Positions 5,974 to 10,587 of a DNA stretch of 64,000 nt are shown here, one piece after another. A program made the translations under genes and the position numbers. The notes beneath the pieces are model-generated. The model worked only from the letters and a program-made list of their open reading frames with translations, made no database searches and had not been told where the DNA came from. Position 1 is the first letter of the stretch, and every line of letters starts with the position of its first letter. Source of the stretch: Humitalea rosea (GTDB lineage Bacteria > Pseudomonadota > Alphaproteobacteria > Acetobacterales > Acetobacteraceae); the NCBI RefSeq assembly GCF_003253705.1, contig NZ_QKYU01000027.1:1-64000 (forward strand). The letters run 5' to 3'.

Positions 5974-6860
5974 ACATGCTGAGCCCCGCCCCCCGCCGCA
6001 GCACCGCGCCGCGCCCCGATTTCGAACCCGCCGGGATCGCCGCCGAGGCGCCCGAGGCGGTGGAGACCCCGCTGCCTGTCCTGCGCCGGCTGCTCAACCA
6101 GGGCTGGGTGCGGCGCGGCATCATCCTCGCCGCCATCGCCTGCCTGTGGGAGCTGAACGCGCGGCTGCTGGACAATCCGCTGCTGTTCCCGACCTTCCTC
6201 GTCACCTTCAAGGCGCTGTGGGGGCTGATGCTGGATGGCACGCTGCCGGACCGGATCGGGGTGTCGATGCAGGTGCTGCTCTTCGGCTATGGCGCCGGGA
6301 TCGTGCTCGCCGCGATCATGACCTCGCTGGCCGTCGGCACCCGTTGGGGGGCGGATGTGCTCTCGACCCTGACGGCGATGTTCAACCCGCTGCCGGCGAT
6401 CGCGCTGCTGCCGCTGGCGCTGATGTGGTTCGGGCTCGGCACCGGCAGCATCGTCTTCGTCATCATCCATTCGGTGCTCTGGGCGGTCGCGCTGAACACC
6501 CTGGCCGGCTTCCGCGCGGTGCCGGATGCGCAGCGTATGGCGGGGCAGAACTACGGGCTGCGGGGGCTGCGCTATGTCGCGCTGATCCTGGTGCCGGCGG
6601 CGCTGCCCTCGATCGTCTCGGGGCTGAAGATCGGCTGGGCCTTCGCCTGGCGCACGCTGATCGCGGCCGAGCTGATCTTCGGGGTCTCGGCGGGGTCGGG
6701 CGGGCTCGGCTGGTTCATCTTCGAGCGCCGCAATGCGCTGGAAACCGCGGATGTCTTCGCCGGGCTGATGACCGTGATCCTGATCGGCCTGCTGGTCGAG
6801 GGCGTGGTCTTCCGCACGCTGGAGGCGCGCACGGTGGTGCGTTGGGGCATGCAGCGATAG
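5970..6860 (+). CDS. ABC transporter permease (SsuC/TauC type)
   Basis: Membrane permease of the importer, 296 residues, with about six hydrophobic segments after a polar N-terminus of about 45 residues. It carries the BPD-transport inner-membrane signature around MAGQNYGLRGLRYVALILVPAALP (EAA loop) and the WRTLIAAEL stretch of the SsuC family. GTG at 5970 is preferred because GAGGAGG lies 7 nt upstream and the codon overlaps the ATPase stop (GTGA); ATG at 5976 is the alternative. Binding protein, ATPase and permease form one operon. Confidence 0.9.
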   Translation: MNMLSPAPRRSTAPRPDFEPAGIAAEAPEAVETPLPVLRRLLNQGWVRRGIILAAIACLWELNARLLDNPLLFPTFLVTFKALWGLMLDGTLPDRIGVSMQVLLFGYGAGIVLAAIMTSLAVGTRWGADVLSTLTAMFNPLPAIALLPLALMWFGLGTGSIVFVIIHSVLWAVALNTLAGFRAVPDAQRMAGQNYGLRGLRYVALILVPAALPSIVSGLKIGWAFAWRTLIAAELIFGVSAGSGGLGWFIFERRNALETADVFAGLMTVILIGLLVEGVVFRTLEARTVVRWGMQR

Positions 6861-7288: not shown

Positions 7289-8251
7289 ATGCGCGTCCTC
7301 ATCCTGTTGCTGACCCTCGCCTTCGTGGCCCCGGCGCACGCGGACCTGCTCTATGTGCTGAATTCCGGCGATGCCGACATCCAGGTGCTGGATGCCGGGA
7401 CGCGCGAGGAAGTCCGCCGCATCTCCGTGCTGCGCGAGGCGCATCATCTGGTCTGGGCGCCCGATCGCTCGGTGCTGCTGATCGGGGATTCTGGCGGCAA
7501 TGAGATGCTGTTCATCCAGCCCGCGACCGGCGAGGTCATCAGGCGCGAGCGGATCTCCAACCCCTACCACATGGAATTCAGCCCGGACGGCAAGCATCTG
7601 GTCGTCACCAGCCTGCGGCGGAACCAGGTGGACATCTACAACTGGGACGGCGCTGACCTGACCCTCGCCGCGCGGCTGCGGGTCTCGGACAAGCCGAGCC
7701 ATCTCGCCTACCGCCCGGATTCCAAGGTCGTCTATGTCACCTTGCAGGGCACCCGCAGCCTGATCGCGATCAGCCTGGAGACCAACCAGCCGCTCTGGAC
7801 CATGGAGGTCGGCCGCGATCCTGCCGGGGTGATCTGGCACCGTGACCGGCTGCTGATCGGCATCATGGGCAGCGACAATGTCGCGGTGGTGAACGCCGAG
7901 ACCCGCGTGGTGGAGCGCCGGGTCGTGGTCGGCCGGGGCGCGCATGCGCTGTTCGTGGGCCCCAATGACGGGCCGGTCTATGTCACCAGCCGGGTGGACA
8001 GCCGGATCACCGTGCTCGACCCCGGCAGCCTCGCGGTGCTGCATGCCTGGAACGTGCCGGGCGGGCCGGATTGCCTGACCTTCGACCCCGAGGGCCGGGT
8101 CTGGGCCACCTTGCGCTGGGCCGGGCGGGTCGGGCTGGTCGATGTGGAATCCGGCACCATGGAGGAGACCCGCGTCGGCCGCAGCCCGCATGGCGTGCTC
8201 TTCGTGCCCCGGCGGGATGTGGCGGCGGCGGTGCCGGCGCCCGCCCCGTGA
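7289..8251 (+). CDS. Secreted YVTN-type beta-propeller protein
   Basis: A 320-residue exported protein with a signal peptide of about 18 residues ending PAHA. The rest is made of about seven 40-residue repeats of the YVTN/NHL-like kind, seen in LLYVLNSGDADIQVLD, SPDGKHLVVTSLRRNQVDIYN, RPDSKVVYVTLQGTRSLIAI and GPVYVTSRVDSRITVLDPGS. Such propellers bind partners or ligands and have no catalytic residues that can be assigned. The stop overlaps the start of the deacetylase gene (TGATG), and the deacetylase in turn overlaps the desaturase gene, so the three are surely one operon. Confidence 0.75.
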   Translation: MRVLILLLTLAFVAPAHADLLYVLNSGDADIQVLDAGTREEVRRISVLREAHHLVWAPDRSVLLIGDSGGNEMLFIQPATGEVIRRERISNPYHMEFSPDGKHLVVTSLRRNQVDIYNWDGADLTLAARLRVSDKPSHLAYRPDSKVVYVTLQGTRSLIAISLETNQPLWTMEVGRDPAGVIWHRDRLLIGIMGSDNVAVVNAETRVVERRVVVGRGAHALFVGPNDGPVYVTSRVDSRITVLDPGSLAVLHAWNVPGGPDCLTFDPEGRVWATLRWAGRVGLVDVESGTMEETRVGRSPHGVLFVPRRDVAAAVPAPAP

Positions 8252-9000
8252 TGCTGCGGCGGGGGCTGCTGGGCGCGGCCGGGGCGCTGCTGGCGCGGCC
8301 GGTTTTCGCGCAGCCGCGCGGCGCCGGCACGCTGTACCTGACGATCGACACCGGCTGGGGGCGGGAGGCGGAGCAGATCGCGGCCCTGCTGCGCGAACGC
8401 CAGATCCCCGCGACCCTGTTCCTGGCCGATGAGCCGACCTTTCGCGGCGACCGCAGCCTCGGCCCCGGCTGGGCGCCGTTCTGGCAGGCCCGCGCCGCCG
8501 AGGGCCATGCCTTCGCCAGCCACACCTGGCGGCATTGGTATTTCTCCGGCGACACCGGGCGGGACCGCGTGCGCTTCGCCTCCCGCCGGAGCGGCGAGGG
8601 GTCTGAGGTGCTGACCCCCGCCACGCTTTGCGCGGAGCTGGAGCATCCGATCCAGGCCCTGCGCGCGATGGTGCCCCATGCCTCGGTGCTGCCGCTGTGG
8701 CGCGCGCCGGGCGGGCGGGTCACGCCCAATGCCATCCGCATGGCCCGCGCCTGCGGGCTGACGCATCAGGGCTGGACCAGCGGCGGCTTCCTCGGCGACG
8801 AGCTGGAGTCCGCCGCCCATCCGAACGCCGCCCTGCTCAGCCGCGCCCTCGGCGGCATCCGCGATGGCGAGGTGCTGGTGATGCATTGGGGCGTCCGCTC
8901 CCGCCGCGACCCGATGGCCAATGTCTTCGGCGCGATGCTGGATGGGCTGTTGCACCGCGGCTTCCGCTTCGCGCTGCTGCCGCCGCAGGGCATCGGCTGA
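8251..9000 (+). CDS. Exported polysaccharide deacetylase-like protein
   Basis: A 249-residue protein with an N-terminal signal (LLGAAGALLARPVFAQ). The NodB homology domain of carbohydrate esterase family 4 is seen as TIDTGWG (motif 1, usually TFDDG), SHTWRHW (motif 2), WRAPGGR (motif 3, R-x-P-G) and VLVMHWG (motif 5). The catalytic-base Asp of motif 1 is kept, but the next, normally metal-binding Asp is Thr. It may therefore bind metal differently or have lost activity. The start at 8251 shares one base with the stop of the beta-propeller gene. Substrate unknown; an envelope or secreted glycan is likely. Confidence 0.8.
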   Translation: MLRRGLLGAAGALLARPVFAQPRGAGTLYLTIDTGWGREAEQIAALLRERQIPATLFLADEPTFRGDRSLGPGWAPFWQARAAEGHAFASHTWRHWYFSGDTGRDRVRFASRRSGEGSEVLTPATLCAELEHPIQALRAMVPHASVLPLWRAPGGRVTPNAIRMARACGLTHQGWTSGGFLGDELESAAHPNAALLSRALGGIRDGEVLVMHWGVRSRRDPMANVFGAMLDGLLHRGFRFALLPPQGIG

Positions 9001-9944
9001 TGTTCGACTTCATCGGGGACCTCTGGATACGCTTCACCGGCACGCTGTTCGAGCAGGCGCTGCAACCCACGCTCTACGCGCTCGGGCTGATGGATTGGGC
9101 GGATGACGCCTTCCAATGGATGGATTTCTTCCTCTTCGGCCTGTTCAGCGTCGGCGTGGTCTATGCCGTGTGCCGGCCGCTGGAGGCCTGGCGCCCGGTC
9201 GAGCGCTGGGCCGACCGGCGCGATGTCGGCACCGACATCATCTACACGCTGCTGGCCCGCCTCGGCATCCTGCCGCTGCTGGCCTTCATCCTGCTGGCCT
9301 CGGTCGACGCCTGGGTCATCGGCACCATCGCCGACAGCGGCTGGGTGCCGCCGAGTTTGGAGAACCTGTGGCCCGCGCTGCGCGAAAGCCCGCTGCTGGC
9401 CTTCGCCGTCTATGTCGTGGTGCTGGATTTCGGCGAATACTGGCGCCACCGCTTCCAGCACCGCATCGGCTGGTGGTGGGCTCTGCATTCGCTGCACCAC
9501 GCCCAGACCCAGATGACCTTCTGGACCGATGACCGCAACCACATCCTGGACGACTGCCTGGGTGCGCTGTGGTTCGGCGGGCTGGCCTTGCTGATCGGCG
9601 TGCCGCCGGGGCAGTTCCCGCTGGTGGCGCTGGTGCTGCGGCTCGCGGAAAGCCTCTCCCACGCCAATGTCCGGCTCTCCTTCGGGTCGGTCGGCGAGCG
9701 GCTGGTGGTCTCCCCGCGCTTCCACCGGCTGCATCACGGCGTGCTGTCCGCGGGCGAGAGCGGGCGCAATTACGCCGTGCTGCTGCCGATCTGGGACTGG
9801 ATCTTCGGCACCGCCGATTTCCGTCGCGACCAGTTCCCGTTGACCGGGGACCCCGATGCCTCGCCGGTTCTGGTGCATGGCGGCTGGTTCGCGCAGCAGA
9901 TCGAGGGGGGGCGGCGGCTCTGGGGCGTGCTGCGCCGCGGCTGA
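9000..9944 (+). CDS. Sterol desaturase/fatty acid hydroxylase family protein
   Basis: Integral membrane di-iron enzyme, 314 residues. It has the three His clusters of the family: HRFQH (H-x3-H), HSLHH (H-x2-HH) and HRLHH (H-x2-HH), with hydrophobic segments at about 35-60, 80-105, 135-155 and 190-215. Members hydroxylate or desaturate sterols, hopanoid-like lipids, carotenoids or fatty acids; the substrate here is not known. The start overlaps the deacetylase stop by one base. The gene ends inside a 15-nt tandem repeat that supplies a second in-frame stop. Confidence 0.87.
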   Translation: MFDFIGDLWIRFTGTLFEQALQPTLYALGLMDWADDAFQWMDFFLFGLFSVGVVYAVCRPLEAWRPVERWADRRDVGTDIIYTLLARLGILPLLAFILLASVDAWVIGTIADSGWVPPSLENLWPALRESPLLAFAVYVVVLDFGEYWRHRFQHRIGWWWALHSLHHAQTQMTFWTDDRNHILDDCLGALWFGGLALLIGVPPGQFPLVALVLRLAESLSHANVRLSFGSVGERLVVSPRFHRLHHGVLSAGESGRNYAVLLPIWDWIFGTADFRRDQFPLTGDPDASPVLVHGGWFAQQIEGGRRLWGVLRRG

Positions 9945-10086: not shown

Positions 10087-10587
10087 CTAATGATCCTTCT
10101 TGTCCTCAAGCCGGTCGAGCAGGCCGAGCATCAGGATGCCGCCCAGGAACATCCCATGCAGCGCCATCGCCATCCAGAGGTCGCGGTCGCTGTAGTGGCC
10201 GACCTTGAGGAACATCGACAGCAGATGGATGCTGCTGATCGCCACGATCGAGGTCGCGAGCTTCACCTTCAGATTGCCCGGATCGACCGAACCGATCCAG
10301 GCGATGCCATCCGCATCCGCCTGTTTCGCCAGACGGCTGACCATGCCGTCATAGGAGGCGATGACGACGGTGATCACCAGCGAGGCCACCAGCGCCGAAT
10401 CGAGCAAATAGAGCAGGCCGAGCAGGACGTCCTCGTCGCTCGCGACGAAGAGGTCGGTCCCGAATTTCCAAACCTTCCAGGCAAAGCGCACCCCATAGAG
10501 CCCGAGCGCCAAGGCCAGGCCGAGCATGAACACCGTCAGCACATGCCGGCTGGCGAGGATGATGCGGTCGAGCGGTGTGGTCATCAC
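10087..10587 (-). CDS. YqhA family (UPF0114) membrane protein
   Basis: A 166-residue inner-membrane protein matching the YqhA/UPF0114 family in length and pattern: LDRIILASRHVLTVFMLGLALAL, a TM pair with LLDSALVASLVITV, the conserved polar loop with KLATSIVAISSIHLLS, and a last TM around LHGMFLGGILMLG. About four membrane segments. The function of the family is not known. GTG at 10587 is directly followed by ATG at 10584; either may be the start. It is transcribed away from ridA across a 50-nt gap. Confidence 0.85.
   Translation of the reverse strand: MMTTPLDRIILASRHVLTVFMLGLALALGLYGVRFAWKVWKFGTDLFVASDEDVLLGLLYLLDSALVASLVITVVIASYDGMVSRLAKQADADGIAWIGSVDPGNLKVKLATSIVAISSIHLLSMFLKVGHYSDRDLWMAMALHGMFLGGILMLGLLDRLEDKKDH

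Follow-up and report, generated by a model that had tools for sequence, protein, structure and literature searches.

The window, a 64,000-nucleotide stretch of the Humitalea rosea genome (assembly of 4.97 Mb, 99% complete), contains three consecutive genes on one strand (Table 1). They encode a beta-propeller, a NodB/CE4-fold protein and a membrane di-iron enzyme. The one-base TGATG overlaps described at both junctions in an initial annotation of this DNA were borne out by reading and translating the sequence. An alternative GTG start of gene 2 at 8248 would give a four-base overlap with gene 1. The junctions of relatives were frequently four-base overlaps or small gaps, not TGATG. Genes 1 and 2 overlapped in 37 of 70 loci and were at most 40 bp apart in 62; for genes 2 and 3, the numbers were 40 and 69 of 76 loci. 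Signal-peptide-like N-termini, judged by eye, were found in proteins 1 and 2 and in their homologues, consistent with the export that had been proposed for both. A scan of the operon with the sigma-70 consensus, which is uninformative for a GC-rich alphaproteobacterium, detected no promoter-like site, and no RNA elements were matched in Rfam.

Table 1. Genes and conserved residues of the operon in the window
Feature	Position	Strand	Description	Basis or conservation
Gene 1	7289-8251	+	Exported seven-bladed YVTN/YncE-like beta-propeller, 320 aa	Translation, PF21783
Ring H52-H53 codons	7442-7447	+		H53 in 136/136, H52 in 135/136 homologues
Ring Y93 codon	7565-7567	+	Blade 2	136/136
Ring H138 codon	7700-7702	+	Blade 3	136/136
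Ring H219 codon	7943-7945	+	Blade 5	136/136
Ring D261 codon	8069-8071	+	Blade 6	136/136
Ring H301 codon	8189-8191	+	Blade 7	136/136
Gene 2	8251-9000	+	Exported NodB/CE4-fold protein, 249 aa, optional member	Translation, PF01522
Motif 1, TIDTG	8341-8355	+	D33 kept, T34 for usual second Asp	118 homologues
Motif 2, HTWRH	8521-8535	+	Two metal-binding His, H91 and H95	118/118 each
Gene 3	9000-9944	+	Membrane di-iron enzyme, FA_hydroxylase/sterol desaturase superfamily, 314 aa	Translation, PF04116
His box 1, H150-x3-H154	9447-9461	+		Both invariant, 146/146
His box 2, H163-x2-H166-H167	9486-9500	+		All invariant, 146/146
His box 3, H242-x2-H245-H246	9723-9737	+		All invariant, 146/146

Conservation and gene neighbourhood

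A search with the NodB protein returned 157 related stretches from named genomes; of these, the 80 best were analyzed. The hosts of these 80 Acetobacteraceae-clade loci were Roseomonas, Pseudoroseomonas, Roseococcus, Belnapia, Falsiroseomonas, Neoroseomonas, Rubritepida, Caldovatus, and others. The PF04116 gene was downstream of NodB in 77 of the 80, the propeller was upstream in 71, and the complete trio with order and strand kept was present in 68. Eight of the nine propeller-less loci ended at a contig edge just upstream. Across the family, a NodB homologue was found in 51 of 200 genomes and 24 of 102 genera, with 2 of the 51 matches weak and partial.

A profile search of 398 Pseudomonadota genomes yielded 16 more genomes with a match outside Acetobacteraceae. 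Within the order to which one of these belongs, matches were present in 42 of 200 genomes, representing 24 of 108 genera. All 16 were assigned to one other class because the same families recurred within that member's order; we infer that they are Burkholderiales members, and those with genomes of 1.7–2.1 Mb are probably Polynucleobacter. All three genes were in order on one strand in 40 of the 41 loci read from this class. Since order and strand were kept in 68/80 and 40/41 loci, chance or strain-specific grouping was ruled out. The neighbourhood search suggested in the initial annotation thus placed the trio in many genomes, and gene order, spacing and conservation supported its prediction of a real operon. 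Flanking genes changed between loci while the unit stayed. The distance matrices of the three proteins correlated pairwise at 0.69–0.81, uncorrected for species divergence. The unit is ancient and occurs in dozens of genera of two bacterial classes. The module was kept in genomes of only about 2 Mb and is therefore probably important to the cell.

The PF04116 protein was more widespread than NodB, occurring in 112 of 150 Acetobacteraceae genomes and 77 of 102 genera. In the NodB-less genomes of this family, the propeller gene lay directly upstream of the PF04116 gene in 24 of 30 loci; the PF04116 gene stood alone in 6, which counts against the lipid module proposed below. The propeller-PF04116 pair also stood without NodB in five loci of the other class. 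Because the pair persisted in NodB-less genomes, propeller and hydroxylase form the core and NodB is optional. The trio is a real unit, as first described, but not one of equal partners, as the pair occurs without NodB in many genera. The trio may be the older arrangement, since NodB lies between the other two genes in both classes. Three loci (L085, L091 and L101) had about 1.5 kb inserted between the NodB and PF04116 genes, and the insert of L101 encodes a 361-aa protein resembling an outer-membrane beta-barrel.

Upstream sequence was available for 69 Acetobacteraceae loci, and in 56 of them the preceding gene on the same strand was msrB or msrA; most of these had the two genes as an msrA-msrB pair. 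This arrangement favours a role in oxidative-stress defence, with msrA/msrB belonging to the operon and either the propeller or the hydroxylase handling oxidized lipid or protein. Such a role was considered very improbable, as the window, divergent family members and the other class lacked upstream msr genes, and the msr-to-propeller gaps (56–560 bp) were wider than those within the trio. Upstream of gene 1 in the window, an ABC-transporter operon ends at 6860; the msrA-msrB pair of the host is on another contig.

Frequent neighbours in the other class, named by eye, were an EI24-like membrane protein, a MoaB/CinA-like protein and GlnA, which look like inherited synteny. A UPF0114 membrane protein gene (Pfam-tested) was found downstream of the operon in the window (10087-10587, minus strand), and a similar-looking one upstream in Acetobacteraceae bacterium H6797 (L097 4036-4566, minus strand). 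Plasmid records were searched for functional clues, and the module was carried by one Pseudoroseomonas plasmid only, the 194 kb pL11-C of Pseudoroseomonas cervicalis (L162 3917-8632). On it, the place of msrAB ahead of the trio was taken by an SDR gene and another polysaccharide deacetylase gene (PF01522/DUF2334). SDR-like or deacetylase-like genes preceded the trio in several Pseudoroseomonas-type loci (six). Four other-class loci had an exosortase-like gene and a partner-like gene divergently upstream (L180: 3438-4663); L180 had no PF04116 gene within reach. The exosortase-like, SDR and second NodB neighbours were rejected as functional clues, each being limited to single lineages.

Predicted folds and conserved residues

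Gene 3 was assigned to FA_hydroxylase (PF04116) with 2e-29 and 103 bits against the Pfam cut-off of 31. About four transmembrane stretches are predicted in the protein. All ten checked histidines were invariant in 146 sequences, in agreement with the earlier description of a membrane di-iron enzyme whose His clusters are intact. The mean charges were 0.5 KR and 6.5 DE at the N-terminus and 10.8 KR and 7.3 DE at the C-terminus. By this positive-inside pattern, the His boxes are predicted to face the cytoplasm. The family name and PF04116 membership would suit a modification of hopanoids or sterols. This was scarcely conceivable, as squalene-hopene cyclase was absent in 15 of 26 module genomes: the host, despite its nearly complete assembly, and 14 of the 25 others. 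Hopanoids were therefore excluded as a general substrate. Another PF04116 protein encoded in the host genome is from a different subfamily; it is also OlsE-like, at 72 bits (G000:C16; L158 5805-6593), and no propeller homologue was found near it.

Gene 1 matched PF21783 (YncE-like/YVTN propeller) with 1e-50 in Pfam. Its AF2 model showed seven blades with a mean pLDDT of 94.2, and the best PDB match was 1l0q (Z 37.0, rmsd 2.5, 292 aligned). In an alignment of 136 homologues with a mean identity of roughly 50–60%, the innermost strand of each blade started with an invariant or near-invariant residue: H52/H53, Y93, H138, A179, H219, D261, and H301. R235 and R276 were likewise invariant. Many of the propellers were extended at the C-terminus by a proline/alanine-rich segment of up to about 80 residues (noted in five loci), which the propeller of the window lacks.

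Propellers with His at the start of the inner strand bind copper clusters in N2O reductase and thiocyanate dehydrogenase. Both enzymes were high among the structural matches: 1fwx, an N2O reductase, gave Z 32.1 (rmsd 3.3, 305 aligned), its CuZ-ligand mutants gave Z about 31, and thiocyanate dehydrogenase gave Z 29.8 (rmsd 2.9, 291 aligned). The ring of gene 1 sits at the blade phase that the CuZ ligands occupy in N2O reductase. The propeller may thus itself be a metalloenzyme or metal carrier whose ring holds a mono- or multinuclear centre, while the di-iron enzyme makes or repairs its lipid or quinone cofactor. The invariance of the ring at this level of identity argues for a metal centre, as do the absence of His from the ring positions of 1l0q, the closest solved relative by sequence, and a local alignment of SPHG in blade 7 with SPHG of a NosZ. 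However, seven-bladed propellers score well generally, so the Z values are no proof of function. The NosZ histidines are on other blades, the NosZ CuA domain is missing in gene 1, and the global NosZ alignment (probability 42%) was unreliable over the full length for mapping CuZ ligands. A metal-carrying propeller of this kind was judged unlikely. Quite improbable was a funnel with a new metal centre (five His with Tyr and Asp) that forms, together with the di-iron enzyme, an inner-membrane-spanning two-metal system oxidizing a new bacterial lipid class.

Gene 2 matched Polysacc_deac_1 (PF01522) with 3e-14 and 53.6 bits against the Pfam cut-off of 23.1. The AF2 model had a mean pLDDT of 88.6. 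Its PDB matches were CE4 enzymes (best Z 19.8), which placed the protein in the NodB fold, closest to peptidoglycan and xylan deacetylases. In CE4 enzymes, the second Asp of motif 1 is a metal ligand. D33 was present in 117 of 118 homologues; position 34 was T in 115 and S in 2, and one row was gapped. The canonical CE4 active site with two Asp in motif 1 was therefore absent, the second being Thr or Ser in 117/118. The other canonical CE4 positions were conserved, the active-site residues D33, H91, H95, R151, D183, and H212 being present in at least 117 of 118 homologues. The TIDTG motif reported at first is present, but not as a local defect: by the alignment it is a fixed family trait and does not indicate a damaged enzyme.

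The structure 2j13, classed as MurNAc-deacetylase-type (PMC10967932), reads TFDNG at motif 1, without the second Asp; the T34 substitution therefore has precedent. Gene 2 may bind its metal through H91 and H95 alone. The first Asp of CE4 motif 1 is the catalytic base, D73 of PdaA (PMC12444981). Since this base is conserved and R151, D183 and H212 are invariant, an active enzyme was favoured, and gene 2 is regarded as a candidate deacetylase. Among related CE4 proteins, cyclases and pseudoenzymes have evolved (PMC12444981), and BA3943, cited as a relative of this type, was among the structural matches of gene 2. In the window, the NodB protein (8251-8340) is missing the Cys found ahead of LYLTIDTG in the majority of homologues and keeps C127 and C168; it may have lost a disulfide.

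With NodB as the main enzyme, the unit would modify peptidoglycan or an envelope glycan. The fold relationship to peptidoglycan and xylan deacetylases is consistent with this, and the NodB homologue of the other class scored with the PdaA and PdaB models. It was nevertheless held to be decidedly unlikely, as the many genera with the propeller-hydroxylase pair and no NodB show that NodB is not core.

Proposed function and comparison with known systems

The operon is proposed to be an envelope module with a lipid oxidation core, a periplasmic propeller partner and, where present, a NodB hydrolase. This proposal is tentative and falls a little short of probable. The superfamily and topology of gene 3 made lipid oxidation the likeliest reading. 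As the core pair, the gene 3 enzyme would oxidize a membrane-embedded lipid, acting on it from the cytoplasmic side of the inner membrane, and the propeller would be its dedicated periplasmic partner. The central funnel of the propeller, lined by the invariant His/Tyr/Asp ring, would be the binding site for a metal ion or polar head group. NodB, where present, would be a working periplasmic hydrolase that deacylates the same envelope lipid or a glycan attached to it. The trio may modify a surface lipid or glycan. Propeller and hydroxylase presumably form a complex or serve one pathway, and the ring presumably binds a ligand. The hydroxylase and the other two proteins would act on opposite membrane faces, which counts against the module if the predicted topology is right.

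We infer a lipid substrate for the module, with an ornithine-lipid-type amino-acid lipid as the leading candidate. An OlsB-type acyltransferase (PF13444) was strong in 25 of 26 module genomes and also present in 23 of 24 genomes without the module. It was rejected as an uninformative marker: since PF13444 is equally common without the module, an ornithine lipid is possible but not supported by it.

Each protein comes from a known superfamily; the combined unit is so far undescribed. No paper combining propeller, NodB and PF04116 was found in a literature search made largely outside subscription journals, and a description elsewhere is possible. We likewise know of no name for the conserved propeller-NodB-hydroxylase unit, in line with the earlier remark that no named system has this trio. 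The unit suggests that Acetobacteraceae and members of the other class share an envelope lipid or cofactor that has so far gone unrecognised. The defined pair of propeller and hydroxylase and the exact residues (the ring and T34) are targets for testing.

Compared with known systems, gene 1 has the seven-bladed YVTN fold of the YVTN/YncE propellers (1l0q, E. coli YncE), whereas 1l0q lacks its invariant His/Tyr/Asp ring. The likeness to TIGR03866 (PQQ_ABC_repeats) was weak, 77.7 bits against a cut-off of 287. Gene 1 resembles the N-terminal CuZ propeller of N2O reductase in its seven-bladed fold and in the HH pair and single His at the inner-strand start. However, it falls outside N2O reductase by sequence: its 320 aa hold a propeller only, with five invariant His instead of a CuA domain and seven CuZ His, and Tyr and Asp occupy two ring positions.

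The fold of gene 2 is like that of the PdaA/PdaB-type proteins (TIGR02884, TIGR02764), with Z 18.5 for 1w17 (rmsd 2.9, 190 aligned) and Z 17.8 for 2j13 (rmsd 2.5, 172 aligned). The catalytic Asp, His pair, Arg and motif-5 His are common to both. Gene 2 differs in having Thr for Asn/Asp in motif 1, GDEL for the usual motif 4, and an operon with propeller and hydroxylase.

OlsE (NF052566), which hydroxylates the ornithine head group (PMC3972451), was the nearest NCBIfam model of gene 3, which speaks for a lipid hydroxylase. OlsE is likewise a PF04116 membrane di-iron enzyme and aligned over residues 18–271. Gene 3 scored 76.2 bits and its other-class homologues 53–60 bits, far below the cut-off of 475, and gene 3 differs from OlsE in being paired with a periplasmic propeller in all but a minority of genomes.
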